64,000 nucleotides of DNA, taken from contig NC_003075.7 in assembly GCF_000001735.4 (NCBI RefSeq), positions 5,519,001 through 5,583,000 on the forward strand, in the 5' to 3' direction. The translations under genes were made by a program, and so were the position numbers. Shown here piece after piece: positions 1,746-56,624 of the stretch (the stretch's first letter is position 1; every line of letters starts with the position of its first letter). The notes beneath the pieces were generated by a model. It was not told the origin of the DNA. It was given only the letters and a program-made list of their open reading frames with translations, and made no database searches. This DNA comes from Arabidopsis thaliana. Its lineage: Eukaryota; Streptophyta; Magnoliopsida; Brassicales; Brassicaceae.

Positions 1746-2309
1746 GAAACAGAATACATTTTTTTTTTATTACTCACATGTTTTCAGTAGTTGTGTAATT
1801 ACAATTAACATTCCTGATTAGTTATAATTAATTATTATTATTTAATTCGTTTTAACTAAAATTAAATGAAAAAACAGTGATTATACATGTCATCAATCCA
1901 TGTCATTAATATAATCCACGTCATTAATCAACTCCAAAATGCACAAACGTTTCGGTTTCTTACTGTTCATCGGCGGAAAAAAAAACTCTCTCTTTCTTTC
2001 TCTCTCGATAGGGAACGAACTCTTCACCCTATTCCGTCGCAGTTTTCGCTGTTCTCGTCTGTTCTGACCGAAAATCATACGCCGGAGTCTAATTTCTGGT
2101 TTCGCGAAGTCACATCCGACATCTGGAGTCGCATTTGTGGTTTCTGGCTAAGTTCCGGTAAGTATGATTCCAAACTTTATTTCGAATTTTCCGACAAGAA
2201 TCCGACATCTAAGTTCAATCGCAAGTGATTCCCGTCACTGAAATCGTTTTCCGTTGCTTAACGATGGTTTTTAAGGTCGTCGTTGATTGACATATGGTGG
2301 CTGATTTGT

Positions 2310-2750
2310 TAGATCTATTTGATTTGACGGCTGAGTTACTGTTTGTTTGCTGACTGATTTATGATTTATCAATTCATCTGTGTCTGAGTTTGTTTTATGC
2401 TGTGATTGAGTTATGGTTTAACCTTACATCGATGGCTGAGTTTCTGTTATATGACGGCTGAGTTTGTTTATGTTATGGCTGAGTTTCTGTTATGATATGG
2501 TTGAGTTTGTTTATGTTTTGACTGAGTTGTTGTTATGTTATGGTTTGACTGAGTTTCTGTTAATATATAGCTGAGTTAGATTTATGTTATGGCTGAGTTA
2601 TGTTATGTGTGGCTGAGATAGGTTTATGTTATGACTGAGTTATGTTATCTATGGCTGAGTTAGGTTTATGTTTTGCCTGAGTTATGGTATTTGTAGATGA
2701 GTTTGTTTTATGTTATGGCTGAGTTATTGAATGCTTACGGCTGATTTATG
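2310..2750 (+). repeat. Degenerate GGCTGAGTTATG repeats in 5' intron
   Basis: The intron between the 5' UTR exon and the first coding exon consists largely of GCTGAGTT words at 15-40 bp intervals, nearly all in the same orientation as the gene. Spacing is irregular, unlike a microsatellite. Confidence 0.8.
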
Positions 2751-3639
2751 GTTATACAGATGTCTGAAGACCAAGCAAGGGATTACCCTCCAAGACTTTA
2801 CCCAGAGGAGGATTCTAATCTGGAGAGTAAAGGCATTAATCACAACATAAAGCTGGGAGATTTCCCTGCAATTAGAGAATCAATAGGAAAAGATATATGG
2901 GAAGAACTGAAAGAGACACCGCTTGGATTAATTGCTAAGCTTGTTGATAGTCATTTTGTATGGTCTGGTAAGACTGTACATTATCTACTATGCAGACAGC
3001 TGAGAATACTGAAGAAGGAGCTTTGATGTATCGTGGCTGGTCAACCCATCCAGTTTGGATTGAACGAATTTTAACATATCACGGGTTTAAATACAGATCA
3101 ACTACCTACATAAAAGTTTGAGCCTGAAGCTGACTACAAAACGTTCTTCAGGGAATTGCGTGTGCCAACCGGTGAAGGTCCTATTCTAGATGAACTTAGG
3201 CAAGGCTTAGTAATGTGTAGAGCATGGCCTCCTGAAAAGCGTAGATGGTTTGGGTTATTGACTCTTCTATCCATTGGACTTTATGGCTTGCATACTAACT
3301 CTAGGATACCATTTGAGAGTGCCAAAAGAGTTTTCGATGACGAAGCCATGAAGACTTATTCATGGGGTTGGGCAGCATTTGAAGCCCTTGTCGTTTCTAT
3401 AAAGTTGCCGAGGCCTATTGGCAAGACGTACACCGTCAGTGGTATGGCTTTCGTGTTGCAGGCTTGGGCGTATGATTCAATCATCACCATCGGCGAGCGT
3501 TTTGGGAATGTTCTAAAAGCGGATGAGATTCCGTTGCTTAGATGGGGTGGCAACCGTACCCCTGCAACAATAGAATCGACCATTGCTGAAGATATCAAAG
3601 TGAATGGTGGTGAGGTACGTTTTCGGCTCTGTTATGATA

Positions 3640-3945
3640 GTCATTGACTGAGTTATGTTCTGTTTTTTATCAAATATTTATGTTACGGCTGAGTTGTGCT
3701 CTTTTATCACTGAGTTAATGTTTTGTTTTTTTGTCAAGTATGTTACGTGACGACTGAGTTATGATCTGTGAAGGCTGAGTTATGTTTTCTTGTTTTGGCA
3801 AATATGTTATGTGACGACTGAGTTATGTTCTATAATGGCTGAGTTATGTTAGGTGACGGCTGAGTTATGTTCTATAATGGCTGAGTTATGTTAAGTGATG
3901 GCTGAGTTAAACATACTGATGGGTTTTATTATCTCTTGTGTTGTA
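3640..3945 (+). repeat. GGCTGAGTTATGTT cluster in intron after DUF1985 exon
   Basis: The intron holds about ten copies of the motif, several as GGCTGAGTTATGTT separated by short AT-rich spacers. All of them lie in the sense of the gene. Confidence 0.8.
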
Positions 3946-4654
3946 GCTGCGTGTTCGTAAAATGGTTGAAAAGGCTGAGTTAAGCGAGCTGTTTCATTCT
4001 TGGCCAGACCAATTAGAAGACCCAACACTCGATAACTTGATCCAAGACTTACATGAGCTTAAGCTTGTTAAAGGTTATTGAGATGTGAAGACGAGTGAGA
4101 AAAAGAAGAAACTCTTAAAAGATAAAGAAACGGATGTGTCTGAATCTCCCACAAAGAAGCAGAAAGTCTCTCACAGTGAGGGTGTTCATTCTCGTGAGAA
4201 AAATGCACAAAAGAAGAAGAAGAAGAAGAATAAGAAGAAGGAAGTAGCTGTCGAATCTGATGAGGACGAGGACGAGCAGGATGTTCAGGGAGAACAGCAG
4301 CCGCTCGTGGATGTGGTGTCCAACTTGATCTCTCCCTTAAACTCAAGGTTTGACACCGTTGATAATAGCATCAAAGATATGTCCTCCCGTCTGGATGTGA
4401 TTGGAGTTCAAGTAGAATCGAAGGTTGAAGCAAAGTTTGAAAGAAGGTTTGCATCTATTGAGAACGATGTCAAACAAATTAAAGAGCATCTAAAGGGCAT
4501 AGCTGACTCAGAATTAAACTCTACTAGTTATATTAGAGATATGTTTTTACCCAAAACACAGCAAGGCTACCTTAAGCCCCGAACTCAACAGACACCAGAC
4601 GGTCCAAAGAAACCTACAAATAACCAATCTGCTACTAGTCCTCCGTCGGTAAAC

Positions 4655-4985
4655 TTTTAGTTAGTTATGACTGAGTTATCTTCATATTATACGGCTGAGT
4701 TATAAATTTTAGTTAGTTATGGCTGAGTTATCTGAATATTATACGGCTGAGTTATAAATTTTAGTTAGTTATGGTTGAGTTATTTGAATATTATACGGCT
4801 GAGTTATAAATTTTAGTTAGTTATAGCTGAGTTATCTTCATATTACACGGCTGAGTTATAAATGTTAGTTAGATATGGCTGAGTTATCTTCATATTATAT
4901 GGCTGAGTTTAGTTAGTTATGGCTGAGTTATCTTCATATTATACGGCTGAGTTATAATTTTTAGTTAGTTATGACTGAGTTATAT
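4655..4985 (+). repeat. 52 bp tandem array, two GCTGAGTTAT motifs per unit
   Basis: Units begin TTTTAGTTAGTTATGGCTGA and recur at about 4655, 4707, 4759, 4811, 4862, 4908 and 4958. The period is 52 bp, shortening at the end. Each unit carries one motif after TTAGTTAT and a second after ATTATAC. It lies in an intron of the DUF1985-Ulp1 gene. Confidence 0.85.
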
Positions 4986-5929
4986 TTATACATAGGTATG
5001 AGTTTTCGTTATTTAACGCCTGAGTTTTCGTTACGTTTATGCAGTCGAAACAAGCTGTAATGGTAGAGAATGATGCTGATATTGCTGAGGTTGGGGTAAG
5101 TAGGAATCTTGAAGGAGAATTTGCTAAGGCCTCCATCGTGTCTGATAATGATTTCATTGAGACTTCTCCTCTCAACCGCCGTTTACGCTCTACGACGGCA
5201 GCGGGGAAAATATCCAAAGCGAAGCCACCACCAAAGCAGAAAAAGTAGAAAACATTAAATGAGCTAATCGAGAAACCGCCAGAGAGAAGAAGAAGAAAGG
5301 CTGCTGCAAAGGAGCCTAAAAAGGTGCCTCCAAAGGTGCCAAAGATTACAATTAAAAACCCAAAATCATCTGAGGAAGCTAAGGAAAAATTTGAGGAAGC
5401 CAAGGACATGATTCTATACTTGATGTCACTGATCAGGTTGTATCTGAGTATAATCAAATGGTTTCTGAGTCTGATGAAGATGAGGAGGAAACCGAGAGGC
5501 TGCAGAGAGTAAAAGATGGGAGGATAAAAACTGTTAAGCTAGCCCCGGATGGGAGGTCATTGATTAAACCCGATCTAATGACCACTAACAGTTTTCCAGT
5601 CATTGGAGACAACGGGCTGAGCTGCATGAGGAAGGGTTGTCTGCCTTCACGAGCAATCTATGATCCTCTGGCACCGGTTGATCCGGCCAAACTACAGAAT
5701 CTTAAGGCTTATTTGTCAAGTCCCGACTGGTATGGCCCTTTATACCTTAATAAGTTGTTAAATACGACATGTTTACACTATTTGTTTATATTAACTTTCT
5801 TTACTATTTGTTAGCAAAAAATGGTTGGAAAGTGGGATAGACGAGGTGCATTTCTACTTTGTTATCATGGCCGAAAGAAAGAACTGGGCAGACCCCAAAC
5901 ATGGATGGCTGGGTGATGATGTAAGTTAT

Positions 5930-6180
5930 TGTTATATTCTGTCTGAATTTGTCTAATGTTATAGCTGAGTTATCGTGTCGTTCTGTCTGAGTTAAAGTAG
6001 ATAATGGCTGATTTATGATGTAAGTTATTGTTATATTCTGTCTCAGTTTGTCTAACGTTATGGCTGAGTTATCGTGTCGTTCTGCCTAAGTTAAAGGAGA
6101 TAATGGCTGATTTATTTAGGTGTTAAGGCTGAGTTTTACTTGGTTACGGCTGAGTTAATGTTGTGTTTTGTCTTAGTTTT
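5930..6180 (+). repeat. Two-copy intronic repeat carrying the motif
   Basis: The block running from GTAAGTTATTGTTATATTCT (5922) through a GCTGAGTTATCGTGTCGTTC word is repeated about 97 bp later. It fills the intron just before the exon that opens the protease core. Confidence 0.7.
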
Positions 6181-6869
6181 ATTTTTGTACAGCATATTGG
6201 TGCGTATATGAAAGTCCTCGCCCAGAGGCTCTTGCGAGATCCCACCCCATACCACAGCGAACGCGTCATGATTCTAGACCCGTGGTTCACGACAATGTGG
6301 GTTAATGATTACAAACAGTGGAAGATGAAACCGAAGAGGGTTTCTTTCAGAGATACCCCGTATGAAGGTTGGATGAACGGTACGGCTGGAGAAGACCCAA
6401 CAAATAAGAAGTGAATAACAGATGTGGATCACTTGTTTCTTGTCCACCAAACCGGAGGTAATCATTGGGTGACCCTTCACGTGAACTTGCCTAGGTCTCA
6501 CATCGATTGCTATGATTGCATCGTCGGAGAGCATACTCCGATTAGCGATGGAAAAATCCTGGAAGCTTGTAGGCCGTTCACGAGGATGATTCCACAGATG
6601 ATGAGTGAAATTCTTCCTCCCGAAGTTTGTATCCCGCAATACGACCAATTTTCATTCCGGCGGAGGCACATGACAAAGGTCCAGCAAAATATTATCACCG
6701 GGGACTGCGGCGTTTACACGTTAAAGATTCTTGACTGTTTATTGCTTGGTGTTTGTTTTGATGGCATTACTAATTCAAATATCCAGGGTCTACGGGTTAA
6801 GATGGCAGCAGAGATCTTCGATGAACTACCTGTAAGAATGCCCCTTCAGTTTTTTGAGCAGTGATTTGC

Positions 6870-7250
6870 TTTTTCGAACATGTCTGTATCTTTTGGGAAT
6901 TTTAGCATGTGATTGTACTAAATATTTACACTTTAGGATTGATAACCAGAATTATGTCTGTATGAATCTATTATTATGTTAATTATAACAAAAACCAATG
7001 TAATGGCTGACTTATCATCGCTCGATACGTTTTACGGCTGAGCTATGCTAACGTAAGGGCTGACTTGTTATCGCTCAAATCGTGCTACGACTGAGTTATG
7101 ATACCGTCACAGCTGAGTTATCGTTGTTTAATTCGATGTTTAGCTGAGTTATTCTAATGCGGTGGCTGACTTGTCATCACACAAATCGTGTGATGGCTGA
7201 GTTATTCTAACGTGGTGGTTGACTTGTCAAACCCAAACTTCCATCCCATC
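6870..7250 (+). repeat. Motif-rich spacer downstream of the protease gene
   Basis: About ten variants (GGCTGAGTTAT, GGCTGACTTGT, AGCTGAGTTAT) are scattered here with no coding region. Many have drifted to GACTTGT, suggesting an older, less constrained cluster. Confidence 0.65.
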
Positions 7251-7409
7251 AAAGAAACCAAACGTCACTGTAGGACTATACATACACCGGTTTACGACAA
7301 CTGAATAGTCAAGAACCCAAACGTCGTTAGAGGACCAAACGTTTGATTCATAGGGATACAAAATAAAAGAAATAAAATAAAGAACCATAACTCAACAAAA
7401 GATGTTTAC

Positions 7410-7704
7410 ATCTGATATTTCATACGGACAACTGAAAAAAAGTTTTCCGGTTGTAACAGGATCACGAGAAGTGGCAACGACAACCTTAGCATTGCAATCA
7501 CACTCGATCGGAACGCCCTTATCGCGCCTCCTGTTTTCGTCGTACCTCGTTCGCATCCTTATTTCCATACGATCGAGCTCCTACATTAACACAAACACGA
7601 TATACTCCACGTTAGATGGGTAACGATTTGTACTATTCAGATGTGAAGATAAATACCTCATCGACACTAGAGTCACCGTGGAAAAGAGACCCTTGAGCCA
7701 TCAT
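7410..7704 (-). pseudogene. GRF-type zinc finger gene fragment
   Basis: Two short minus-strand exons join in phase: 7704-7657 (ATG, 16 codons) and 7580-7410 (57 codons), with GT and AG at the borders. The second exon contains the GRF finger pattern: IECDCNAKVVVATS, then GKLFFSCP. GRF domains bind zinc and single-stranded or other nucleic acid in several enzymes, and plant MULEs often carry short GRF proteins of unknown role. No plausible continuation with the usual coiled coil was found after the donor at 7409, so the gene is either truncated or very degenerate. Confidence 0.55.
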
Positions 7705-7814
7705 CTTGGCTGCAATTAGTATGGTACTAAAGCACTGATTCTATATAGTCGTGTCTGCTACAAAAAGCACTAATCAAACGACGGCTTCTTGTATTGGCTG
7801 AATAAATTTAGAAG

Positions 7815-9305
7815 TGGTTGAGTTATAAAAGCATTGCGGCTGGGTTTTCACTGAGTTGTGGCTGAGTTATGTCGGGATACAATATGTTATTACTTAGCGT
7901 GTTGCTTTAGGTTGGGTTTATCAAAATTCTTTATTATATCATTATCGACATAACAAACAGCATCTTTATGGGGAACCGCCAGTAATGATTGGGTCCACAT
8001 GCACAGGAACACAAGCCAGCAGTTAATATTCAAAATAATTCGAACGTGTTCGAAATTATTCGAATAACTAAACCCTCAAATAATCAAATTTTCTGTTTTG
8101 CGGTAGAATATTATAACGTTACGGCTGAGCTATGCCAAAAAATTTCGTGGTTTGACCGAGTTATGAGAAACCATATGTTATTATGACATTTTAAACCAGC
8201 CATCAAATTGTTGGTTATATTAGTAGCGTGAAGATGTGTAATTTGAAAACAGAAAATAACTTTTATTTTCAGTAAGTGTCGATTGACAAACTATGTTGGC
8301 AAAACTTCTAAGAATGATGTTGTTGGATAGAGTATGATGTTGGATAAAGTAGGATGTTGGATAAAGTTTATAGGATATGAGCTAGTTTCACGATTCCACT
8401 ATTTGGAATGTGGTTATGATATGTAAATTACTTGATTCTACCAACTGTTGGCTCAAGAAAAGCACTTTCAGGGTTTGGCCGAGTTATAACAGTTATATGG
8501 CTGAGTTATTCCTGAGTTGTGGCTGAGTTATGTCAGAAGATTTCGATGTTCGAACTACTTATGAGAAAACCAAATGTTATTATGAGATTTGTATACAAGC
8601 ATTATTGTTGGTTCTATTGATGTCCCTTACTCAGGTAGAATAGAATATTGCTGAGTTTTGCTTTTTGCTGAGTTTATCAAGAAACAATTATTATGTTATT
8701 GTCGAGATTAAAAAAGTGTTTTTATGGGGACCGCCAATAATGATTGGTTTCATATTCACACGAACACGTCAAAAGATAATAATTCAAACGAGTTTGAATT
8801 GATTCGAATAACTAAACCCTCAAATATAAATGTTCTGTTTGGCGGTAGAATACCAATACGTTACAACTGAGTTATTGCAGAAGATTTCGTGATATGGCCG
8901 ATTTATGAGAAACCAAGTGTTATTATCAGATTTCAAACTAGCCATCAAATTGTAACAATTTTGTGTCAAAATTTAAAATCTATTATATCCAAACAGAAAA
9001 TAAAGACACAATGCACTAAGTGTCGATTGATAAACTATGTTGACCAAACTTCTACGACTGATGTTGTTGCGACTTCCCTTTTGTTGGATAGAGTATGTTG
9101 TTGGATAAAGTAGGATGTTGGATGAAGTATATAAAAAATGAGCTAGTTTCATGATTCCACTAGTTGGAATGTGATTATGATATGTTAGTTACTTGATTGT
9201 CCCAACTGATGGTTTAAGAAAAGCAATTTCAGGGTTTGGCCGAGTTATAACAAAGTGATGGCTGAGTTATGCCTGTGATGTAGCTGAGTTAGGTCAGAAT
9301 ACAGA
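7815..9305. repeat. Tandem duplication of a ~745 bp motif-bearing unit
   Basis: The same order of landmarks occurs twice: ACCGCCARTAATGATTGG (7976 and 8728), ATTCGAATAACTAAACCCTC (8057 and 8803), GCGGTAGAATA (8100 and 8842) and TTTCAGGGTTTGGCCGAGTT (8467 and 9228). Offsets are 742-761 bp. Both copies end in a triplet of GCTGAGTT words. Sequence divergence is substantial, so the duplication is not recent. No gene is seen inside. Confidence 0.85.
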
Positions 9306-9531
9306 GAAAAATAGTCTCTGTTATTGACCAGATACGACGTCGGTTTGTTCCAGAGTCTCTGTTATTTACCAGATATGACGTCGTTGTGACAAAAACCAAA
9401 TGAACACGAACACACTTATAAATCCCCAAAATCAAACCCTAAGTTTTAAAATTCCAATTTCTGATTTCAGATCTGGAGCTGCATTCCTTCTTGCTTTTCG
9501 TCTCCGAATTTCCCAACTAAAAATTAAAGAA

Positions 9532-10062
9532 ATGAGTAGCAATTCTGAGAATTCGATTGCGAGTACACAATCCGTCAGCCGTTTGGGACGTCGGTTACCA
9601 TCGAAGTGTCATTGCGGATTAGACGTGGTCATCTATACATCGACGCCAGCAAAGAACCGTGGAAGACCATACTTCCGTTGTCCTACGCGTAAAGATGTAA
9701 TTGATTTGAGGATTTTATTGGTTTCGTTGTTAATTGATTTGTGATTGAATATGCAGGACCATTTGTTTAAATGGATTGAAGATGGTACATACGAAATGGT
9801 CGTAGACAGTTGGCCAAAATTGTCCGCCATGGACAGTGAGATAAACGCAGCCAAGTCCGAGGTTGCTGTCGAGCTAGAAGCGTTACAGGTGATGGTGAAA
9901 GAACTGAAGGAAGAAGTGATGAGGAGCGAAAGGGAAAACCAGAAATGGAAATTGATGATCAAACTTTGCTGCTTTTGTCTTGGCTTTATTATCATTGTCA
10001 TTGTACTTGGTATCTTAATGTTCCCAAAAACCAAGGAACAGAGGCTTCTTCTTGGCTACTAG
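9532..10062 (+). CDS. GRF zinc finger protein with coiled coil and membrane anchor
   Basis: The gene is join(9532..9696, 9757..10062), 156 residues. A 60 bp intron with GT and GCAG borders keeps the frame. Residues ~22-60 form a GRF finger (SKCHCGL, GRPYFRCP, then HLFKWIED across the junction). Residues ~75-125 are charged and heptad-like, predicting a coiled coil. About 20 hydrophobic residues near 130-150 (CLGFIIIVIVLGILMF) predict a C-terminal membrane anchor. This architecture resembles the family represented by At4g04775-like proteins, often found in Brassicaceae MULEs. Function is unknown. It is the only element 1 gene seen without obvious lesions. The start at 9532 was preferred because upstream in-frame codons do not look protein-like. 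Confidence 0.75.
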
Positions 10063-10352
10063 TTTGTTTGATGTTTGGATGAATTGTTTGCTTTTGGAAT
10101 CCATTATGTCATTGATGTTTATCTCAGCGTCTAGGGTTAATTCGTTTTTTTGGTTCAAATATTAGCTTGCAATGAAATGGAACTTTGTGTTCGGTCAAGC
10201 TAATCCAATGTTGTGGCTGAGTTAATATAATGTTATTGCTGAGTTAAGCTAATATTATAGCTGAGATTTTTACAACGCGTTGACTGAGTTATACTGGTAA
10301 TGTTGTGACTGAGTTAATAAAACGCTATGACTGAGTTATTCTTTGTTGTGTC

Positions 10353-10650
10353 TGCGTTAATCTATTGATACGACTGAGTTATTATAATGGTGTGACTGAG
10401 TTAATCAATTTATATGGCTGAGTTAATTTTGAGTTACGCCTGAATTATGATAAAATTTAACAAGTGACCTCAAGCGATAACAACTGACTTTACTGAGAAG
10501 GCGTTAATCTATTGATACGACTGAGTTATTATAATGTTGTGGCTGAGTTAATCAATTGATATGGATGAGTTAATTTTGAGTTAGGCCTGAATTATGATAA
10601 AATTTAACAAGTGACCTCAAGCGATAACAACTGACTTTACTGAGAAGGCG
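10353..10650. repeat. 148 bp tandem duplication with motif
   Basis: The block beginning GCGTTAATCTATTGATACGA and ending ACTGACTTTACTGAGAAGGC occurs at about 10353 and again at about 10500, nearly identical. Each copy carries two or three CTGAGTTA words. The flanking 10200-10350 also holds several motif copies. Confidence 0.85.
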
Positions 10651-10749
10651 ATCGTAGATAATAGGAGATATAAAGCCATTACCAAAAAAAAGAAGAGAGT
10701 AATATACTGAGTTCATAGGAATGAGATAAAGGGAAGAGAAGTAAGAGAC

Positions 10750-11303
10750 ACAAAAGCATTCAACACATGAAACCGACATCATCTGGGCCAAATTCAGTAA
10801 TCATGTCCACCAAATCATTCCAAACTGTTGTCGTCATCCACCACGACTTATCTAAACCACGCGCTCATCCCCGTTTCAGCGCCCGCATATTGTCCCGGTA
10901 CAACGTTCTAGCCAACAAATTAAACTGCGTCCACACCGTTAGTGTGTGCCTTGAATCTCAGGTTTACATACACTACAAAGAGAGCAAATAGTAAGAATTT
11001 AGTCTACGGTTTACAGGAAGTGCTTTATATAAAAACTCGATGCTTACCGTGAGGAGAAAAAAACATCTTGCCTTGAAAACAACAGGAATCATCCGGTACG
11101 TCGGCCACGCATGGTGAAAGTTGCGTTGGAGTATATCTGCAATCGCGACAAATAGTTGGTGATTGAATGTGAACCACGTAACAATGGTTTTGTCAACCCA
11201 TGTACCCAATCCAGGGTTTAAAACTGGGAGATTCGCCCGATCAGGAGCGGTGAGCACGGCTTCGACATCTCTGATAAACTGTCCGTCAATGTGAGGAACC
11301 ATG
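10750..11303 (-). pseudogene. Possible Ptta/En/Spm-type accessory protein, decayed
   Basis: A minus-strand frame opens at ATG 11302 and reads through LNPGLGTW, then VAIADILQRNF, then AWPTYRMIPVVFKAR. After an intron (donor near 11047, acceptor near 10982) it continues towards TLYRDNMRALKRG and SWWMTTTVWNDLVDMI. The pattern of a hydrophobic helix, an aromatic-proline segment, then an R-x-x-M-x-x-x-K-x-G segment and W-x-x-x-V-W-x-x-L recalls plant 'transposase Ptta/En/Spm' domains. At least one in-frame TGA and one frame change break it. The assignment rests on pattern recall only. Confidence 0.35.
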
Positions 11304-11369
11304 TCGTTAGGAAGTGAGGATGAGACGTGTAAATGATGAGTTCAAGTAACTGATATATAGAAAAGAAAA

Positions 11370-11810
11370 GACAGGTAGAGGAATGCGAAAGGTTCCGTGT
11401 CTGTTCGTTTGGCCGGAAAAATTTCCGTGTTACGGCTGAGTTTGGCGGCAAAATATATTGTTACGGCTGAGTTACACTCAAGACATGTAACAATGTTACG
11501 GCTGAGTTGTCAAGAATTATTAAAAAAAGACAGGTAAAGGAATACGAAAGGTTTTGTGTTTGGCGGGAAAATTTTCCGTGCTACGGCTGAGTTTGGCGGC
11601 AAAATATATTGTTACGGCTGAGTTACACTCAAGACATGTAACAATGTTATGGCTGAGTTGTCAAGAAATATTAAAAAAAGACAGGTAAAGGAATACAAAA
11701 GGTTGCGTGTTTGGCGGGAAAGTGTATAGGTTACGGCTGTGTTTGGCGGCAAATTGTACTGTTACGGCTGGGTTAAACCACATTACGGCTGAGTTGTCAA
11801 TAAAGTATGA
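11370..11810. repeat. Three-copy ~155 bp tandem repeat with motif
   Basis: Units start GACAGGTARAGGAATRCRAAAG at 11370, 11529 and 11680 (periods 159 and 151 bp). Each contains TTACGGCTGAGTTTGGCGGC, a second TTACGGCTGAGTTA word and a third before TTGTCAAGAA. There are thus three motif copies per unit. Confidence 0.9.
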
Positions 11811-11986
11811 CGTTCAATTCGATTTACTGACTAACCGATTTACGGTTATATCTGGCCCAATTAACACCAGTTTAATACGCCTATAAAAACGGCTTCTCCC
11901 ATAAACTCCCAAAGCCTAAACTCTCACAAACAAAAGTTCACGAGTTCAAAATATTTCTTTACTTTTCAACGACTCGGAATTTCACC

Positions 11987-13002
11987 ATGGGTTACGACGG
12001 CCTCCGCGACTTGAATCCTTGCATAACTTGCTGGATGATTTGTGTTATGGTTCTTAGAACGTACAGATCATTTTTCACAGATAACTCATTCGAACTACGG
12101 GTCGTCTTTGTCGATGAGTGGGTAATGGAATCTTCACTAATGATACAAGTCGTACTTAACCTTGTTCTTATCTTATTCCCTATATAACTCATCCTCCAAT
12201 GTTGTTTTCATAGGGAATCCAAATTGAAGCTATAATCGGAAGTCGTTTTTCTCAACGTTACTTCGACATGCTCAAAGAGAATCAGTGGAAAGAAAGCAGA
12301 ACTTTTGGTGTCATTGAAAACTGTGGTTTTGTCTGTCAACAACCCACAAATACATGATTGAGTTCATGAATGCAACTGAGATAACTCATTCCGACCCAAG
12401 GGAAACTGTATTATTTAACAGATTCACACATTTTGACAACATTATTGAAGACACCGCTCATACTGAAAATTTGGTAGGTAAGTAATACGTATCTAATGCA
12501 GATTTCATACTTTCACAAATCACATGCCTGTTTTTAATCTTTATTTCATACTCCCATATTTGGTTGGTGCACTCGTCGATGTCGGATGTCTGACAAATAT
12601 TACAGAAAATGGTTTCAAGATTACAGATTCACACTTACCTTCGAGATTATGTACAAATAGTACAATTTTTTTTTATCAATTACTTCTAAATTTCTTTCTT
12701 TTCATCATATATTTTTCCTGAGAGGGGTATAATTATAAAACTGTTTTATATGTTTCAGCAAGGAGAGGTTGAAATGTGAGGCTTTTGGCCAAATGGCCGT
12801 TGACTTGCATAGCAAATTTCGATCTTTTCGCAATGACAGTATTGTTATTGACAATATTTTTATTGCACTCACATGGTGGAAGATCTTTAGGTATCATACT
12901 GACCCCAAACATGTGAAGATCCAAAATTATGCAGATATATCAGATGTGACTGTCGATCCCAATATCGAAGAACTGCAAGAGTTAAAAATGGTCCTCGAGT
13001 AA
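11987..13002 (+). pseudogene. OB-fold (DUF223/RPA1-like) DNA-binding protein, decayed
   Basis: Pieces follow in the order expected for plant DUF223/replication protein A-like proteins. First comes an N-terminal strand block (LNPCITCWMICVMVLRTY, 12010-12065). After an intron come IQIEAIIGSRFS and ESRTFGVIENCGF (12212-12335), then FDNIIEDTAHTENLV (12430-12475), then LVGALVDVGCLTNITENG (12555-12612). The last exon holds EAFGQMAVDL through DVTVDPNIEELQELKMVLE to the stop at 13000. A frame shift near 12345-12355 and an odd junction near 12760 indicate decay. Such OB-fold genes are carried by Helitrons and MULEs and are thought to bind single-stranded DNA. Confidence 0.6.
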
Positions 13003-13129
13003 TGCAAGATGGAAGGAATCGGGTTATTACCATTGTTTACTTTTCATATCCTCCTATGTATCCTTCAAACAAATATTTCTGGGAATTTCATTTTGTGTTT
13101 GCCTTCAAAATTCAGTTTCATAACTCAGC

Positions 13130-13460
13130 CGTATTATAATTGAATAACTTAGCCGCTAAGTAACATAATACGAATATAACTCAGTCGTAAGTAATTCAGC
13201 CGTAACATGTAAAATGAACTCACCTTTCGACTGCCGTAGTTTTATAACTCGGACGTAACATGTAAAATGACCGAACCTTTCGACTTCCCTAATTATATAA
13301 CTCGGCCATAACATGTAAAATGACCGAACCTTTCAACTTCCATATTTATATAACTCAGCCGTAACATCACCGAATGACCGAACCTTTTGACTTCCCTATT
13401 TAAATAACTCAGCCGTAACATGTAAAACGGCCAGAATATTTTTGCAAATAACTCAGTCGG
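13130..13460 (-). repeat. Five-copy 53 bp tandem repeat with motif in reverse orientation
   Basis: The word CRTAACATGTAAAATGA recurs at about 13201, 13254, 13307, 13360 and 13414. Each unit carries ATAACTCRGCC, the complement of GGCTGAGTTAT. It lies between the OB-fold gene and the 3' end of the transposase gene. From here to 17.2 kb the motif mostly runs on the minus strand. Confidence 0.85.
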
Positions 13461-14039
13461 GACGTTAAAGAAATTGCAAATATTACGGTGCTTAGAGTCT
13501 ACAATGTCACGAAATACATATCACGGTTGCCAAACAAGGAAAAGAAGAAACATATAGAGTACAAACAGTACTATGCACATCAAGTTTTAACATTGTGCCC
13601 AACTTTTTTACATCGAGAACATGTGTGTTCCTTCCTAGGGCGTTTAGTCTCAACGGCGACTTCTAGTGTTGATTTCATCCTTAGTTTCTTGGGCCTGCCT
13701 GGCTGGTTCACAACAATCAGAGGCAAGCACGGTTGGTCAATTACAAATTGAGGAACAGGGACTTCCGTATCTGAAGGCATGATTGCACCAGCATACGCAT
13801 TGACCAAATGACTGCTCTTATAGTAAGGACTGCACATGGATATACGAGACACACCCATATGCTCTGCAGCTAGGATTGCATGGATGCATGGTAATTTCTC
13901 TTTCTCGAAAAGACGGCATGTGGCATTTTTTTCATCCACATTTACAACATGCAAAGATGCTCCATAAGCTACTTGAACGCGGGAAGCATCAATCGTTTGT
14001 ACATCCAGAAGTCTTGACGAGGTGACATGGGTCTATTAG

Positions 14040-14160
14040 TGAGAAGAAACAAGAAACAAAACAAATACGTTATGGCTGAGTTATTCTCATTATGACTGGG
14101 TTATCATTATTTGACGACTGAGTTATGCACTAGTTACAGCTGAGTTACCTGTAACAGTTT
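14040..14160 (+). repeat. Motif cluster in transposase intron, opposite orientation
   Basis: The intron between the catalytic and SWIM exons contains four GCTGAGTTAT-type words on the + strand, antisense to the transposase gene. This breaks the otherwise minus-strand pattern of the right half. Confidence 0.7.
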
Positions 14161-15049
14161 CTCAACACCACGTGTGAGCTGAGTATGCTGTTTGCTTGCA
14201 TCATCTCTTCGTTCAGCAAACCATCTTGTCATCATCTGTCTTATCGCTTCTAACAGTCAAACTATGGGAAGATTTCTGGCTTTTGACAGTAATCTGTTCA
14301 TTGATTCCGCTATATTCGTAGTCATTAAATTGTATCTATCACCGGAGAAATGAGCACGCGCCCACATTTCAACACCCGCTCTTTGGAGGTATGCATGTAG
14401 TAGAAGATCACGCTCTTCAATCTTGTTGAACGCGTTATCAAAATCATTTAGCCTATAACACCTTGCCGCTTTTTTCACCAGAGGGAACAAATCTTTTCCT
14501 TTGAATTTTAGCAAAATGTTCTTATACAGATGGTAAGTACAAATCCCACGAGCAGCCAACGGATACACTTCACCAATTGCTTTCCCTATTGACTTATCTG
14601 TCCGATATTATTGCCAGGTCCGTTGCGTCAGGAATAATAACTTTGAGTTGCGTAAAAAAACCAACGCCAAGATTCATCATTTTCAGTGTCAACTACACCG
14701 AAAGCTAACGAAAAAATCTGAAAATTACCATCATGAGCTAGGGCTGTCAAGAGCGTCCCTTTGTAACTACCATGGAGAAACGTACCGTCGACAACAACAA
14801 CTCTGCGCATGTAATGAAACCCAGCGATACTGGCACCAAATGCAATGAACATATAGTTGAATCTTCTACTCTCATCAATTTGAAGACGCGCGACTGTACC
14901 CGGATTTGCCCGTCTTATCATGTATAGGTAAGAAGGCAGTTCTTCAAAACTACTATCATGGGTCCCCAGAGTGAGCTCCCTTGCAAACCTCAGCGTCTTG
15001 TATGACTTTGAATAACTCATCTGTTAACACAGACATATTAATCGATAAG

Positions 15050-15245
15050 TCAACCATAATATATTTACAACGCAGTCAAACTATACCACAACTCAGCCAC
15101 AAAGTGATCTTAAGTCAGCCTTTAAAGGGTCATAACTCAACCGAAATGTAATTATATGTCAGCCATACTATATCAATAAGTCAACCGTAAAATATGTATA
15201 AGTCCGCCAACAAATAAAAAATAAGTCAGCCGAAACATTGTAATT
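15050..15245 (-). repeat. Motif cluster in first transposase intron
   Basis: Seven or eight AACTCAGCC or AAGTCAGCC words lie between the DNA-binding exon and the catalytic exon, in the sense of the transposase gene. Confidence 0.7.
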
Positions 15246-16559
15246 ACCTTTACTCAAAAATGCTTAGTGATGATTATTCCGACTGTTTTTGGTTTAACAT
15301 TCGGACCAACGTCACCAAGATAGTCCCTGTAAAGAACTCCCAGAACAAAAGGTGTTGTTTGTCGGGATCGATCAGAACGTTCCGTCACAGAACATGTGTG
15401 TTCCGTATCGTATATATAAACATAAAAATTAGGATTATCCCCTTGTCTAGATGCACGAACTCTCCAACGACATCTATCCACCCAGCACTCGTAATATACT
15501 GTAGTCTTATTAGAAGTTGGTACATCAAAATCAAATCCATCCCTTATCGCAAGAAGTTTGAGTCGATACTCCAACTCAAATTTGCTACGGTATTGTTGGC
15601 CTACCGCGAGTGTTAGCGTAGACAGCTCCAACTTTAAATCAGTCAGGCTCCCAGTAGATCCGATCATTTCCATGGTCTTAGTTCTCTTCGTAGGAGTAAG
15701 TTTCGGTGAATCTTCGTCTTTATTCTTAGGCTCGCCGTATACAGCAAAGTCCTCATCATCAGATGAGGCACCATCGGAGTCGTCGAAAACATCAAACCGG
15801 CTAGAAAATTCATCATCTTCTTCTTCGTCACCTGCTTCTTTGTCAGATGCTTCATCGACACCTGATTCATCGTCCCATTCTTCATCATCACCTGATTCAT
15901 CGTCCCCTACTTCATCGTCTTGATAATCGTAACAGACGCCTTCAAACCCCCCACCCGGAACTTTGAATGTAGATTCTGCTCTTGAGTCAGATTCGATAGG
16001 GCGTTTCGAACCCCTTCCTCTTGATCCGTCCTTCCGACTAATATCACTTGAATCTTCAGCCGTAAACTCCACACAGAGACGTAGCTGCTCGAATTTTGTC
16101 AAACCTAGATAACATTGCAATTGTCGATCATTAGAGATATAAACTGTTGGAGTATCAAACGACATATTTTTCAGAGTCTTGTTAGAGAACATGTAACTCA
16201 GCCTTAACTGATGGGTCGACTGATACAAACCGTAATCATCGACCACCAGCTTCAAAAGACTGTCGTGCGTTGCTCTTTCTGCTTCTAGCTGCACAACTCT
16301 ACACCCTCTTTCGTCGGGGTTAAATACGAATCTCTGTTTCTTAACCCACGAACCGGAAACAACTATGACCGTAACGGGATCAGCCATATCGAGAGAAAGA
16401 TGAAAGAAATTGAAGATGTATGAGAAGATGAATGAAGAAGTTGTAACGTTCAGGCGTTAAACACAGTCTGGGAAGACGAGTTAAAGAAGCAAGGGACGTT
16501 TCGTATTTCCGTTGAGGATGCTGACATGGAATGATGACATGGAAAATTACAGCCTACGT

Positions 16560-17190
16560 CGTTTTGAAGTGATGAGGTGGCAAGTAAGCCACCAAACGAA
16601 CAGTTCATAACACAACCATCAAGCAAATCTATAAGTCAGTCGCAACATGAATACTATTACAGTAATTAAAACAGGAGAAAAACAAAGTTAAGTCAGTCGT
16701 GGTATGTCGTAACTAAACTAACTCAGCCGTAACGTTTAACAACTCGGCTGTAACTGCATGCTATTATAGTAATTAATCTTTTGCAAATAAGTCAGCCATA
16801 ACAAGGCTGAGTTTTACCGTAATCCAGCTATTAGCGGCTGATTTATAACACTCGACCATAACTTAGCCGTCACATCATTCCATAACTAAGCCGTCCAAAA
16901 ATATAACTCGGCCGTGTCGCGGAAATAAGTCAGCCGTTTTATCATAACTCAGCCATAACGTTGTCTGGGTTATCGTATAACTTTTTATAACTCGACCAAC
17001 ATTCTTTAACTCAACCATACCGTTGCCTGGGTTATATTACAACTCAGCCGTAACGTCTGGCTGAGTTCTACTCATACTTCGCCGTTTTGTTATGACTCAT
17101 AGATTTTTGTCGTAAGTCAGCCGCAATATACCGTAACTCAGGCGTAACTGCCGCTGTATCGCGTTACGGCTGAGTTCATTTAATCCACGT
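16560..17190. repeat. Terminal motif-rich region upstream of the transposase
   Basis: About twenty copies of ATAACTCAGCC, AAGTCAGCC and similar words occur, interspersed with a few in the + orientation (16804, 17053, 17165). No coding region is seen. It would include the promoter of the transposase gene, and it ends within 50 bp of the proposed element border. Confidence 0.75.
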
Positions 17191-17239
17191 CAGCAAATTT
17201 TGACGTGGCAGTGGCATTCTATATAATTATGTTTTTTCC

Positions 17240-17764
17240 AGTAACGTTTAGTAGAGACACGCTGGGTATTAAAAAAAAAGACAAAAATATCATAATAATT
17301 AAAAAAAAGTTTTGTCTTGTTTTATTAATAACACCTAATTTGTTACCCATCAAAGTAAATCTTCTTTATTTGATGGAATTCATTTTTGGGAAAAACGGTT
17401 CCGAGGACTACAATTCTTGAATGTTTTTTTATATATAGATAAAGAGCAATTCTTCTATACACGAAACCATTTTTGTTTAATGTTGTTTAACCAATATTTT
17501 AATTAAGCTTTACATTCATACTTTTAATATAAAGACAGTTATTGTAATATTTAATTTTATATCTTGTAGATATTTTTTAAAGTAATAAGTCCCATTTCTT
17601 ATATTCTTATCAAATTAAGCAGCCCAGCGCATATTTCACATTGTATTACGGTTGCATGATTAAAAGCAACAAAAAAACATAACATGTCTTCCAAATCACA
17701 ACCATAACAATGTAGAATTCAATTCATAGATCAAAAACAAAGAAAATAAAAGTAAAAGCTGTGG
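17240..17764. other. AT-rich 3' flank of the lipid-transfer gene
   Basis: No gene or element end is supported. The stretch spans the right border of element 1 and the 3' UTR of the minus-strand lipid-transfer gene, whose stop is at 17765. Confidence 0.5.
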
Positions 17765-46997: not shown

Positions 46998-48286
46998 CTA
47001 TTCAGCCTGAGCTTCTCGTGCTCTTTGTACTTTCAGGTCATCAAGATAATTCTGGTAGATATAAAACCCGAACCCCATGAAGGCAATGAGCATCGCGACC
47101 ATCTTAACCTCAGTCAGCTTGTCGTGGAACACCGCAATGGCTGCAAGAGGCGTAACAATGAGTGAGAGTGTACCAATAAGGTTCGAAAACAGCGAAGAAA
47201 CCAGAAATATAAGCGCCACGGCTCCTACAGAACCCAATTGCCACGAAACCGCGGTCCCAACCAAAGTCAAAACATAAATGACTTGACCCTCGTGAAACTC
47301 TTCCATCTCCACACTCAACAACATCCATTCCCCGCTCGCAAACAACCCGATAACCGCAACACAAGAAGCCACAAGCGACGTATAGATTTGCATCTCGAGA
47401 ACCATAGAGAACGTCTCACTCTTGAGAACATTCTCGAAAGAAAACTGCATAAGAGAGAGCTGAAGAGAATAGATAAGAGAAGCAAAAACAGTACATAAAC
47501 AACCAATCAAGTAACTCCACTTAGAATCTCCTGATGGGCTATTGGAATCATCGTCAAGAGAAACCAACACAGCAGAGACAGAGAGAAACAACACAGAGAA
47601 GAGAATCAAACAAGTGATTTTCTGAGAATTGATGTAATAAGAGAAGACACCATTGAAAGCTAACTGTGAAGAACAAAGAATCGAATAAGTTGAAGCAGAG
47701 AGATACAAAAGACCAAAAGAGTATAAAAGATTGTCTAAACCAATAGCAAAACCAAGAGAAAGATAAATCCAAACCAGAGTCTTGAAAGAACAAGAAGATG
47801 AAGAAGAGTGTGAAGCAGGAAGGAAACAAAGAGGGAGATAGAGAATCGGAAAACCACAAGTTTGGACAAGAGTAGAGATCCATTTACTGTTTCCACCTTC
47901 GTTGTAATAAAACCGACCAAGAAGAACAGCAATGGCTTGTGCAGAGATGAGGAAGAAGATACTTATAAAGACAAGAATCCACCAATGGGTTCGTTTTAGT
48001 TTCATGAGTTGTGTAGGAACACTAGTTCTTCTTGTTCCTTCATCTTCTTCCTTTAGCAGTAACATTGCTTCTTCTTCATCTGTTACCCAAAAGAAAAAAA
48101 CACATAAAGTTTTCATCTTTTAAGAAATTTATCATTTTTATGAAAACCCCAATTTTTTGTTTTTGACAATTTTAATCTGGGGATTAAGAAAAATCTGGGA
48201 ATTGGGTTTTGACAATTAATCAGTTTATTTCATTTCTAGAATCGAAACTGAAATTGAAGTAAGGAACATTAAAGAGATATACCCAT
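46998..48286 (-). CDS. PUP13: Purine permease (PUP family, PUP13-like)
   Basis: A 4-base coding mini-exon (48286-48283, ATGG) joins the main exon 48079-46998 in phase to give 361 residues beginning MDEEEAMLLL. Ten hydrophobic segments follow, typical of plant purine permeases of the drug/metabolite transporter superfamily. Landmarks are HWWILVFISIFFLISAQAIA, GLDNLLYSFGLLYLSASTYS, the SSQLAFNGVFSYYIN segment, and VTPLAAIAVFHDKL near the C terminus. These proteins move adenine, cytokinins or related compounds across membranes with protons. The substrate cannot be read here. Gene order recalls A. thaliana At4g08700. A VANDAL-type MULE lies 87 bp upstream of the start codon. Confidence 0.9.
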
Positions 48287-48363
48287 TGTGAAGGAAGATT
48301 TGTTGACTGATGGATGAATCGAGTCTGCTTCAGGATTGAGAGACAAGTCTCGTATCTTTTCTC

Positions 48364-48373
48364 CGGCGAGGAC
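48364..48373. repeat. Target-site duplication, left (CGGCGAGGAC)
   Basis: Identical to 56604-56613 on the other side of element 3. It lies in the leader or promoter of the purine permease gene. Confidence 0.85.
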
Positions 48374-48726
48374 GACCAATCATCTCATAACTCCCTTTTT
48401 GCTTGAAGAAAATCTCATATCTTCCCACAAAAAACAGAACCTATTTGTGATTTAATTTAAATACATAAATGAAGGATTTTACCAAGATATCCTCTCACTT
48501 TAATTTGAAAACCAAAAAAAAAAAAAATTCAGACTCAACACTTACAATTTTTTCGTTTTTTCCTCACTCAAAGAAACGAGTTCCGAGAGAAACCGCTCTC
48601 TCTCTCTCTCGATTCTCTGTGAACACAAACAACTCCTCTCCCTTTCACTCAAATTCTCAACAACACGAACCCTAATTCTCTCTCTTTTCTCTCAGAATCG
48701 TTTCTTCTCCTCTAATCCTAACCCTA

Positions 48727-51572
48727 ATGCCGCCGAAAACAATGCCGCCTCTAAAGAAGAGGAAGAGAGGAGTTGGAACGACCGTGAAATCAACGACGGA
48801 GGAGACTGCGACGGCAACGAAGGAGACTGCGCCGGCAACGAAGGAGACTGCGCCGGCAACGAAGGAGACTGCGCCGACGATAACGAAGGAGACTGCGCCG
48901 ACGAAGGAGACTGCGCCGGCAACGAAGGAGACTGCGCCGACGAGGACGGAGGAGCCGTCGCTGACAGAGCAAGATCCGGAGAATGTTGAGGAAGAAGAGA
49001 GTGAAGAAGAAGAGAAAGAAGAAGAAGAGAAAGAAGAAGAAGAGGAAGAGGAAGGGGAGGAAGAGGAAGAGGAGGAAGAGGAGGAAGAGGAGAAAGAAGA
49101 AGAGGAGAATGTTGGCGGAGAAGAGTCCTCCGATGATAGTACTAGAAGCTTGGGGAAGAGACCTCCGCCGATGAGAATATGGATGAGGAGACATCAACTG
49201 CAGTGGAAATTCCGGCGGCTATGGTAAGGATTTCGAGTCAATTCTCAGTCTTTGAATGGTTTGAAACTGGTAGAACAGGATAATACTATGATTTGTGGAG
49301 AATACTGTCATTACTAGGATATAGCTATGCGTTTTTGGGTCATACTGTCAATACTAGGAAACAACTACGTGTATGATTTGTGGAGAATACTAGGATATAA
49401 CTATGCGTTTTTGGGTCAAACTGTCAATATTAGGAAACAACTACTTGTATGATTTCTGGATAATACTGTCATTACTAGGATATAACTATGCGTTTTTTGG
49501 TCAAACTGTCAATACTAGGAAACAACTACGTATATGATTTCTGGATAATATTGTCATTACTAGGATATAACTATGCGTTTTTGGGTCAAACTGTCAATAC
49601 TAGGAAACAACTACGTGTATGATTTCTGGATAATGCTGTCATTACTAGGATATAACTATGTGTATGATTCTATGTACCATCGGTAGTAATATGAATGAAT
49701 GTCTGTTGCAGGAGATCGACGAGGAAACAGAAGCAGTACCACCCTTGAGTATGTATTTCCCGCCCTCGGAATATGTGAAGAAAATCAAGCTTTCAACTCG
49801 GTGCTATATTCACGAATTGTTGACTACATTCGATAAGTTGGAGCCGCCGATGAGCAAGTCCGAGAGGTTATGGTTTGAGAACCATCCTAGTTTCCAACAT
49901 ATCTTCCACATGCCAAGAGACCCGAACCACCGACTTATGGGGATGTGGATGCTCCTTCTTCGCACGGCGCGCATTGAAAGGAAGAAAGAAGCGTGGTTCA
50001 TCGTCAATGGCGTTCCAATCCGATATGGAATATTGGAACACGCATTGATATCGGACTTCAATTGCAAGAACTATAAACTTGGTTACAAAAATACGGGGAA
50101 TTTGGATTTCAAGAGGAAGCATTTCAAGGATACTGTTGTGAAACGCGAAGACGTGAGAGAGAAGCTCATAGGAATGGTACCGGAGGGTGAAAGATCAAAA
50201 GAAAGGTTGAGGATGATGGTCTTGTATTTCTTAAGCAGCATTATCATAGCGCCTATCAAGACCGGAGATAAGGCACCTCAAGTGGATGAATTTTTCCTCA
50301 AGGTGATGAGTGATCTCACGTTCTGTAGGAATTTTCAGTGGGGGAGGTATTCTTTCGATTACATGTTAGGAACCATCTCACACACGGTGAATCATTTTAA
50401 TGGTTCAGTCACCAACAACGAGAAGTACATATGGCCGGTTCCGGGTTTCTGTCTTCCGATGGAGGTTAGTTACAACTTATAGAATAGGTGATTGTTTGCA
50501 ATACTGATAATACTGGGAATACTATTTGTGATTTAAAATTGTTTTTTTAGTCTGTAGCTTCTTGCATTCGAGGCAATTTCACAGTTGAGGGAAAAATTTA
50601 TTGAGGAAATTGCAGAAGCAGATCCGGGATGTCCTAGGATGTGCAAGGTGAGGTTCAAGAAGAACCATTTGAAAGGCTTTCCTCTTGATACCATTTATGC
50701 AGAATTGGGTACAACTCAGGTTAGTTGTCTTAAGATATACTGTTTCACAAATGATAGTTATTATATTTTCTTATAATAATCCATTCATACTGTTTATCTT
50801 TACAGGTCATTGATTCTATCGTCACACTTGGAATTGAGGAGCAAAAACTCATGAAAGCAATCACTGAAGAAGAAGACGACGTTGACGTGGCTGATATGGT
50901 GGTTGAAAGTTGGGAGAAGCGTCGTAAAGAGGGCCGTCTAATTAGGTTTGATGAGCTCTACCAGCAGGATATTCAAGCCCTGCAGATCATCGCAGGTCCA
51001 AAGATTCCGGGTGCGGAGGATATTCCCGCAGTGCGTGGACAAGAACTCCCGAGTTTGGTTTCTGTGGTTCAGATGATTGAAAACTTGGATAAGAAGATGG
51101 TAGACCAGATGAATAAAATTATAATAATGATTTCTGATTTGGATAGAAGAGTTGAATCGTTGGAAGCATTCAAGGATGAGCAGAAAGCAAAGGAGGAAAA
51201 GGTACATATTGATAATTGCGTAATACTAAGTAACACTATGATAACTAGAGTATAATTGCGTAATACTGATATAACTTCGTTCAATCGCAGAATCAAGATG
51301 AGATGAACCAAGAGGAGGCTGGTGATTCGAGAGAGAAGGATCAAGAGGAGGATGTTGTTCAAGAGAAAGATGGTGATCAAGAGGAGGATGTTGTTCAAGA
51401 GAAAGATGGTGATCAAGAGGAGGATGGTGTCTCGAAAGAGAAGGAACAAGAGAAAGAGAAGGACCCGAAAGAGAAAGAGAAAGAGAAGGACCCGAAAGAG
51501 AAGGATGGAGGTCCTTCAAAACCCGTGGAAGCAAACGTCACGAGAAGGATCACTCGGAGAACCAAGAATTGA
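48727..51572 (+). CDS. VANC-like DUF1985 protein, candidate anti-silencing factor
   Basis: Exons: 48727-49223, 49712-50464, 50558-50719, 50806-51201 and 51291-51572, about 690 residues. The N terminus has seven or so ATKETAP-type repeats and a Glu-rich tract. Exons 2-3 form DUF1985 (ERLWFENHPSFQHIF, WFIVNGVPIRYGILEHALIS, FNCKNY, YFLSSIIIAP, YSFDYMLGTI, then LLAFEAISQLREKF). Exon 4 ends in a coiled coil (SDLDRRVESLEAF). Exon 5 is Asp/Glu/Lys-rich with EEDVVQEKDGDQ repeats. DUF1985 proteins of VANDAL MULEs (VANC) bind element-specific motifs and remove DNA methylation from their own family. Exons 2-5 are open and in phase. Exon 1 needs a 1 bp frame change between about 49130 and 49165, or a non-standard donor at 49111, so integrity is uncertain. 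Confidence 0.75.
49265..49670 (+). repeat. ~85 bp tandem array in VANC-like intron 1
   Basis: The unit runs through GGATATAACTATGCGTTTTT, GTCAAACTGTCAATACTAGG and GATTTCTGGATAATACTGTC. It recurs with TATGCG at 49326, 49404, 49489 and 49574. Each unit has up to three AATACT or ATTACT words, including perfect ATAATACTG. Confidence 0.85.
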
Positions 51573-51799
51573 ACTTGGTTGTCTTTGTTTGGTTTTAGGA
51601 TTTGAATTTGGAATGTTTGGATTTAGGATTTCAAGCTTTGTGAAGATTTGAATTTGGTATGCCGTTTTTTGGTTTTAGGATTTGAATTTGGAATGTTTAG
51701 ATTTAGGATTTCAATTTGCCTTGTGGAGATTTGAATTTGGTATGCCGTTTTTTGGATTTCAATTTGGATATGAATTGGAAATTGATATTCAAGGACTTA

Positions 51800-52020
51800 T
51801 CGAAAATACAAAGAATACAAGAGAAAACTAAGACTTAACGATAATACAGAGAATACAAGAGAAAACTGTGAATACAATGGAATACTGAGAATACAATAGA
51901 AAACTAAGAATTGACGATAATACAGAGAATACAAGAGAAAACTGTGAATACAATGGAATACAGAGAATACAAGGGAAAACTAGATAACCATAATACTGGG
52001 AGTACTAGAGAATACTCAAT
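51800..52020. repeat. AATACA/AATACT-rich repeats between the DUF1985 and GRF genes
   Basis: The string GATAATACAGAGAATACAAG, then AGAAAACTGTGAATACAATG, occurs at 51840 and 51917, with further GAATAC words. A perfect ATAATACTG lies near 51990. It is in the 3'-3' spacer between convergent genes. Confidence 0.7.
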
Positions 52021-52074
52021 AAAAGTCTTACTAAACAAAGGCAGAAATTAAGTTCACACAAACCAATCAATTCC

Positions 52075-52531
52075 TCACTCTCCACAACAAATCCTCCACA
52101 AAGTCCCCATCTTTTTCTGGATCTCATCCAACTTCGAACGCATTTGTTGGTTATAGTACTCCAAGCTTTGAATCTTTTGGTGATGGTTATCAACTTGCTC
52201 TCTTAACCTATTCACCTCTTCTACCATAGCTTTATCCCAAAGTTTTCGAATGTGTAACCCATCATTCTACAAAATATGAATTCTAACAAGCTTAATGAAT
52301 TATTCTAAAACAATATTGATGATATCTTCAATTTACCTTATAATTGGTGCATTCATAGAATCTTTTTCCTTTGTCACCATCTTTCTCAGAGATTATGTCA
52401 AGGATGCGTCCACCACAAGGACAAATTGGCGGAATTCCCTCCATCATTGCCACTTCTTCTAGTTGTTGCATTATCCTCTTTGCGCTCTTCATCTCACCAT
52501 ACCATGGGTCACTCTCACACAATCGATCCAT
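52075..52531 (-). CDS. Small GRF zinc finger/coiled-coil protein of element 3
   Basis: Two exons, 52531-52337 and 52266-52075, join in phase to give 128 residues. Residues ~35-65 hold the GRF finger (PPICPCGGRI, GKRFYECTNY). Residues ~75-120 form a coiled coil (EEVNRLREQVDNHHQKI, MRSKLDEIQKKM). Unlike the element 1 protein it lacks a membrane segment and ends in RICCGE. Function is unknown. The recurrence of GRF proteins in both DUF1985-bearing MULEs suggests a role in the element's life cycle. Confidence 0.75.
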
Positions 52532-52539
52532 AGCTGATT

Positions 52540-56613: not shown

Positions 56614-56624
56614 TTTATTCTATA

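Follow-up and report, generated by a model that had tools for sequence, protein, structure and literature searches.

The 64,000-nucleotide stretch of Arabidopsis thaliana DNA analysed here, which we call the window (NC_003075.7, positions 5,519,001 to 5,583,000), carries in its left part a VANDAL-type Mutator-like element (MULE) that we designate element 1. Element 1 contains a broken DUF1985 exon, an Ulp1 protease exon and a Mutator-type transposase gene (Table 1), and its non-coding DNA is filled with copies of a single 11-base word, GGCTGAGTTAT.

Comparison with relatives placed the left homology edge of element 1 at 1747-1754 and the right one at 17362-17371, the exact right end being our own reading; the element is larger than the 2310-17190 proposed in the initial annotation of this DNA. 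The left end of the relatives, GAAATAATTCCTA, lies approximately 40 bp farther out; in the window this position is occupied by a poly-A tract, and the left tip has been lost in element 1 itself. Placement among the VANDAL-type MULEs without terminal inverted repeats (non-TIR) is based on the profile matches of the transposase and on the ends of the relatives, GAAATAATTCCTA... and ...AATCTCCC, which by eye are not inverted copies of each other. By eye we also found a 9-bp flanking repeat in three relatives: it is exact (ATTTAATTT) at C2:10.59-10.61 Mb and matches at 8/9 positions in the two others, one of which is barely more than a T run.

We read five exons on one strand, the PF09331 (DUF1985) match falling on the first and the PF02902 (Ulp1) match on the last, and the two domains were probably spliced as one gene, 2761-6863. 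A DUF1985-Ulp1 gene had previously been proposed at 2.75-6.86 kb; both domains are present there, but the DUF1985 domain contains three in-frame stops (one TGA, two TAA). A structural approach to the DUF1985 exon was dropped at a mean predicted local distance difference test score of 48.1 (25-row alignment).

Table 1. Features of element 1, in window coordinates. ORF, open reading frame.
Feature	Position	Strand	Basis or remarks
Element 1, VANDAL-type non-TIR MULE, ~15.6 kb	about 1748-17365	+ (drawn with DUF1985 gene on +)	Homology limits against relatives
Word array 1	2329..2749	+	Upstream of first coding exon; periods about 22 and 43 bp
DUF1985 exon, broken	2761..3615	+	PF09331, 65.9 bits at C4:5521988-5522392 (window 2988-3392); partial match 27.5 bits
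Word array 2, intron	3646..3910	+	Periods 21 and 64 bp
Lysine-rich second exon	3948..4650	+	ORF 4085-4660; relatives L039/L040
Word array 3, intron	4669..4983	+	52-bp unit with two words, spaced 24/28
Word array 4, intron	5963..6158	+	99-bp unit
Ulp1 C48 protease exon	6193..6863	+	PF02902, 112.9 bits on 6424-6864
Word array 5	7005..7205	+	Downstream of DUF1985-Ulp1 gene; 53-bp unit
Words within ~750-bp repeated spacer	7816..9270	+	Repeat evident against L054
Small gene, GRF-type zinc-ribbon start	9532..10062	+	PF06839, 24.4 bits, under its 25.9 cut-off
Word arrays 6 and 7	10215..11797	+	22/147-bp and 151-bp units
DUF223 (OB-fold-like) gene remnant	11987..13005	+	By homology alone, to relative L051, whose corresponding stretches match PF02721
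Word array 8	13120..13458	-	53-bp unit
Mutator-type transposase gene	13580..16387	-	DBD_Tnp_Mut, MULE and SWIM matches
Right terminal word array	16718..17069	-	8 copies on -, 3 on +

Arrays of one word in non-coding DNA

At no more than one mismatch, GGCTGAGTTAT occurs at 86 sites in the window, each of them within 2329-17069. Dinucleotide shuffles of the window (n=100) gave a mean of 0.96 matches and a maximum of 4, and none of the 100 attained 86. Anagrams of the word (n=200) matched element 1 a mean of 0.40 times (maximum 10). The exact word is present 25 times inside element 1 and 0 times in the remainder of the window; when two mismatches are allowed, the corresponding counts are 142 and 5.

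Within element 1 the density is 8.6 sites per kb of non-coding DNA versus 0.34 per kb of coding DNA. All but two of the 86 sites lie outside the exon set, which is our reading from ORFs, homology and splice-site-like sequence and draws on no transcript; the DUF223 remnant (about 11987-13005) was tallied as non-coding, as were possible genes on the minus strand around 7.4-7.7 and 10.7-11.3 kb. The two wholly coding sites are at 3973, where the second exon holds an in-frame copy reading KAELSE, and at 16193. Transposase introns near 13.97-14.15 and 15.02-15.25 kb, with limits again of our reading, carry words as well. Saturation of the non-coding DNA, as the initial annotation had put it, is thus borne out by both the count and the placement. 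The word is mostly in a single orientation within each half of the element: between 1748 and 12000 all 61 sites are on the plus strand, and between 12000 and 17365 there are 20 on the minus strand and 5 on the plus strand.

Restriction to one family and one DUF1985 clade

In the whole genome (119.66 Mb, 7 contigs) the exact word is found 284+278 times and its reversed pattern 13+9 times. The word had been called private to element 1; this is correct for exact copies in the window, but not for the genome. Searches with the two ends returned 45 and 40 rows, from which 40 left-end and 36 right-end places were used, with 9 small ones omitted, and joining each end to its nearest same-strand partner within 30 kb gave 24 elements; chance may account for some of the longest pairs. 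We located the first 100 of the 562 exact places (48 on C1, which are all of those there, and 52 on C2): 61 are in paired family elements, 16 are within 3 kb of a family end, and 23 are in neither; of these last, 9 are grouped at three places and 14 stand singly. As far as frequency in unrelated transposable elements was checked, 77 of these 100 places proved to be in or within 3 kb of family elements.

Twelve of the 24 elements are only 2.2-2.6 kb long. They appear to be a non-autonomous subfamily with both ends of element 1, and none of the at least 150 PF09331 matches in the genome falls in them. Four of them, on C1 and C2, have 5, 6, 7 and 9 exact words, and the other eight lie outside the 100 places located.

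Two relatives deserve separate mention. In a 23-kb relative (G000:C2:5198650-5205253) a word pair recurs nine times, with six of the eight steps at 745-747 bp and the others at 1491 and 604 bp; in this copy a spacer has been greatly expanded in tandem. The derivative L006 (G000:C1:11703166-11706176) combines the family left end with a 53-bp word array, beyond which comes unrelated gene-like sequence that gives the impression of an opposite-strand F-box-type gene and may represent gene capture.

We next related the word to DUF1985 itself. The PF09331 profile search of the genome (150 of 297 candidates scored) supplied 52 loci for comparison, of which 30 were the top-scoring and 22 were chosen by us, and words were counted within 1.5 kb on either side of the domain, or less where the retrieved stretch ended. 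Eleven loci have 11-26 copies of GGCTGAGTTAT, 40 have 0 and one has 1. The 11 word-rich loci coincide with a single clade in the tree built from DUF1985 of the 52 loci (support 98/96), so that the expected enrichment near close homologues of the element 1 protein is seen at every clade member, and the partial check against unrelated elements extends to the 41 loci outside the clade with their total of one copy. Besides element 1, 7 of the 10 clade loci had been chosen with prior knowledge of the word nearby; L042, L044 and L049, chosen by DUF1985 score alone, have 21, 11 and 17 copies. Six loci of similar score, L058-L063, have 0 copies and lie outside the clade, though for two of these, on C1, the absence of nearby exact copies was already known when they were chosen.

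The clade has better-preserved members than element 1. Nine of the other 10 have no stop inside the DUF1985 domain, and one has a single TGA. The Ulp1 match in L039 is full-length (202.1 bits), L041 and L042 have stop-free segments with Ulp1 signatures in a loose scan, and in L040 the Ulp1 frame is interrupted by a stop. Related DUF1985 proteins were also found in Capsella and Brassica.

Loci that we take, from the positions of published gene and element numbers, to be VANC6 (L045), Hi/VANC21 (L046) and VANC1 (L047) were examined together with L048, and none of the four has GGCTGAGTTAT at one mismatch or fewer. As a positive control, a count of enriched words ranked AGTATTAC first at the presumed Hi/VANC21 locus. 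At L047 (G000:C1:17044518-17050517), which has both DUF1985 and Ulp1, the top word is GTACGTAC (TACGTAC). Because this locus shares the domain make-up and has another word, GGCTGAGTTAT goes with the clade and not with the domains. The L047 word, an intron word, was counted 14 times against 0.14 expected, both strands of the palindrome being counted, and it is shared by L032 and L034-L037 (Ulp1 was checked in L047 alone); we regard it as a candidate VANC1-type recognition word.

A link between DUF1985 and the plant mobile domain (PMD) was considered but not confirmed: hhalign of 51 DUF1985 rows (without L048) against 8 PMD rows gave a probability of 1.5%. Four DUF1985 loci give weak PMD matches; among them is L048 (G000:C2:6599553-6599975), whose protein scores 24.0 bits with the PMD profile, below the cut-off.

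This distribution bears on whether the element might have gathered the word as a signal of the host, for a transcription factor or for splicing. In its favour, many copies are intronic and run sense to the DUF1985 gene, and TGAGTTA resembles bZIP-type sites. Against it stand the concentration of the located copies in paired elements and near family ends, the total of one copy at the other 41 DUF1985 loci, and the antisense orientation of two copies within a transposase intron, near 14.1 kb. We consider such an origin highly improbable.

The conserved unit and its spacing

Conservation extends upstream of the 11-mer. The unit in element 1, from sites anchored on part of the word only, is GTTAYGGCTGAGTTAT, and the same unit was recovered in the relatives (194 distinct sites). 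It is approximately 16 bp long, in place of the 11 bp originally assigned, and the 11-mer is its core. Its two ends are the identical five bases GTTAY, 11 bp apart; such pairs number 23 in element 1 (the word included), and the 46.6 kb that follow on the right have 4.

Distances from word to word cluster near 21-22, 31, 42-43 and 52-53 bp, with 24 and 28 falling off the beat, and the strongest of the periods tested are 10 to 10.5 bp. For distinct spacings, the 10.5-bp period has P=0.0066 in element 1 and P=0.16 in the pooled relatives; R is 0.58 and 0.60 when repeats are counted, but those observations lack independence. We regard helical phasing of the words as suggestive. One might go further and propose that the VANC protein of this clade reads paired GTTAY half-sites one helical turn (11 bp) apart in GTTAYGGCTGAGTTAY, at sites placed near whole turns, and assembles along one face of the DNA; as a reading of the sequence pattern this is tentative, and we think it rather doubtful. 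If true, this would be a kind of specificity for which VANCs have yet to be examined, and it could be used as an orthogonal address in epigenome editing.

We also asked whether the word could be a neutral product of tandem-repeat slippage that no protein reads. Most copies do lie in tandem arrays. The word is nevertheless present in every type of array, with units of about 21-22, 52-53, 99, 147 and 151 bp; it is retained throughout the clade; and the 86 copies sit in 40 flank contexts (60% single-link threshold), which argues against duplication of a single array. Slippage would have copied the spacers equally readily. In a loose comparison between relatives, with word sites defined in a third copy, the difference was 0.035 for the word, 0.076 for spacers, 0.090 for exons and 0.074 for random 8-mers (standard deviation 0.006). 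Because misaligned repeats could favour the word, we applied a strict test to gap-free, well-matched neighbourhoods: at an 85% threshold the word/flank ratio was 0.69 versus 0.86 at random sites (standard deviation 0.08), and 16 of 22 sites were lower. The strict test is weak, a point in favour of slippage, and we place more weight on the varied unit lengths and flank contexts than on conservation; on this basis we believe that slippage is very unlikely to account for the word.

A candidate anti-silencing system

According to the 2017 report, the DUF1985 protein VANC21 binds a short word that is arrayed in the non-coding parts of its own family and brings about a loss of methylation; the VANC6 words were deduced there from demethylated regions, and binding to a word-rich region was obtained in vitro (PMC5735166). 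We consider it likely, by analogy, that a VANC-type DUF1985-Ulp1 factor of the present family recognises GTTAYGGCTGAGTTAT and removes the silencing of its family. Element 1 is a decayed copy of an Arabidopsis VANDAL-type family whose less damaged members probably encode a DUF1985-Ulp1 protein of the VANC kind. This protein would load onto the word arrays, in their several unit lengths, in introns, spacers and ends, and once bound it would strip DNA methylation locally. Any element with enough words would then be derepressed, including the 2.2-2.6-kb derivatives, whose retention of the word is expected if they are rescued in trans. Because its own DUF1985 domain is broken, element 1 itself would be a target and not a source. 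That the clade protein binds and demethylates is what we infer from VANC21 and VANC6.

Alternatively, a different product of the element, for instance its transposase or zinc-ribbon protein, might bind the word, which would then serve transposition or a TnpA-like role. The right end, and likewise the DNA close to the left end, holds dense and mostly inward-facing copies, the four short derivatives with located words retain both ends along with them, and every gene of the element co-segregates with the word. Yet the copies are spread throughout introns and spacers over 15 kb, not at the ends only, and in VANDAL21 it is VANC21 that binds the non-coding arrays (PMC5735166). A further comparison is offered by a second VANDAL-type MULE, element 2, at window 47000-58000, with DUF1985 at 49658-50482 and transposase at 54046-55725. 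Its word differs: it contains 10 copies of YAGTATTAY and 0 of GGCTGAGTTAT, and its DUF1985 clusters with the Hi/VANC21 locus (support 99/95). Between relatives of element 1 (L051, L039) and element 2, identity is 39% for the transposase and 27% for DUF1985, and this greater divergence of DUF1985 is the sole hint that favours it over the transposase as the reader of the word. We judge recognition by another protein of the element to be unlikely.

Several results weigh against recognition by the DUF1985-Ulp1 factor. Since the genes of any one element are co-inherited, the tie to the clade points no more to DUF1985 than to the transposase, the zinc-ribbon protein or the DUF223 protein. L058, the sister of the word-bearing clade, has 0 copies. 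At the presumed VANC6 locus the published words occur 6 times and yet are outside the eight most enriched, so that known words can escape our count. The conservation effect shrinks under the strict filter and is modest at best; at a 90% threshold the word/flank ratio is only 0.84, a value without a matched control. Finally, some exact copies on C1 lie away from recognised ends, 9 of them grouped at three places and 13 standing singly.

The likeness to VANC21 and VANDAL21 (Hi) includes a DUF1985 protein, many copies of a short word that share one orientation and occupy introns, intergenic DNA and termini, tandem arrays, and a word mostly confined to its family (PMC5735166). The word itself is different (YAGTATTAY there, with 0 copies in 2310-17190, and GTTAYGGCTGAGTTAT here), and binding and demethylation have been shown for VANC21 and are predicted here. 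In addition, a loose motif scan found no Ulp1 signature in the 6 kb of L046, although the same scan missed the Ulp1 of L047. With VANC6 and VANDAL6 the family shares a DUF1985 protein and non-coding word arrays (PMC5735166), but the VANC6 words AGTTGTCC/AGTTGTAC occur once in 2310-17190, which does not place element 1 with VANDAL6, and GGCTGAGTTAT is absent at L045.

The initial annotation had envisaged an undescribed anti-silencing system. Anti-silencing by VANCs that carry Ulp1 has in fact been published: according to a 2026 review that cites a 2022 study, certain Vandals have KIU, a VANC gene that has captured an Ulp1 domain, and KIU genes act on Vandals that carry them by recognising their motifs and causing hypomethylation (PMC13317346). 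VANC1 of VANDAL1 is treated beside VANC21 and VANC6 in a 2023 EMBO Reports paper (PMC10398659). Element 1 resembles the KIU-carrying VANDALs and VANC1 in having DUF1985 and Ulp1 in what was probably one spliced gene of a non-TIR MULE. It differs from VANC1 in its word, L047, which we take for VANC1 from the order of element numbers, having TACGTAC and no GGCTGAGTTAT. The abstract of the 2022 study, in EMBO J, is said to report at least ten systems in Arabidopsis and to treat motif density and helical periodicity. In maize, the Spm protein TnpA, also encoded by its element, reportedly binds a short repeated word and lowers methylation; it is an unrelated protein whose sites are subterminal. A literature search with the 2022 paper outside its scope did not find CTGAGTTAT/ATAACTCAG alongside VANDAL, and the papers containing both were, by title, on other subjects. 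The kind of system is therefore known, and the word of this family may already be listed in the 2022 study.

The 2017 paper leaves to future studies the question of what region of a VANC determines its target (PMC5735166). For a single clade of Ulp1-type VANCs, the present family adds a concrete candidate pair of word and protein, and it includes relatives whose DUF1985 domain is free of stops. The contrast, in the same genome, with another Ulp1-type locus that has a different word would help in asking that question.

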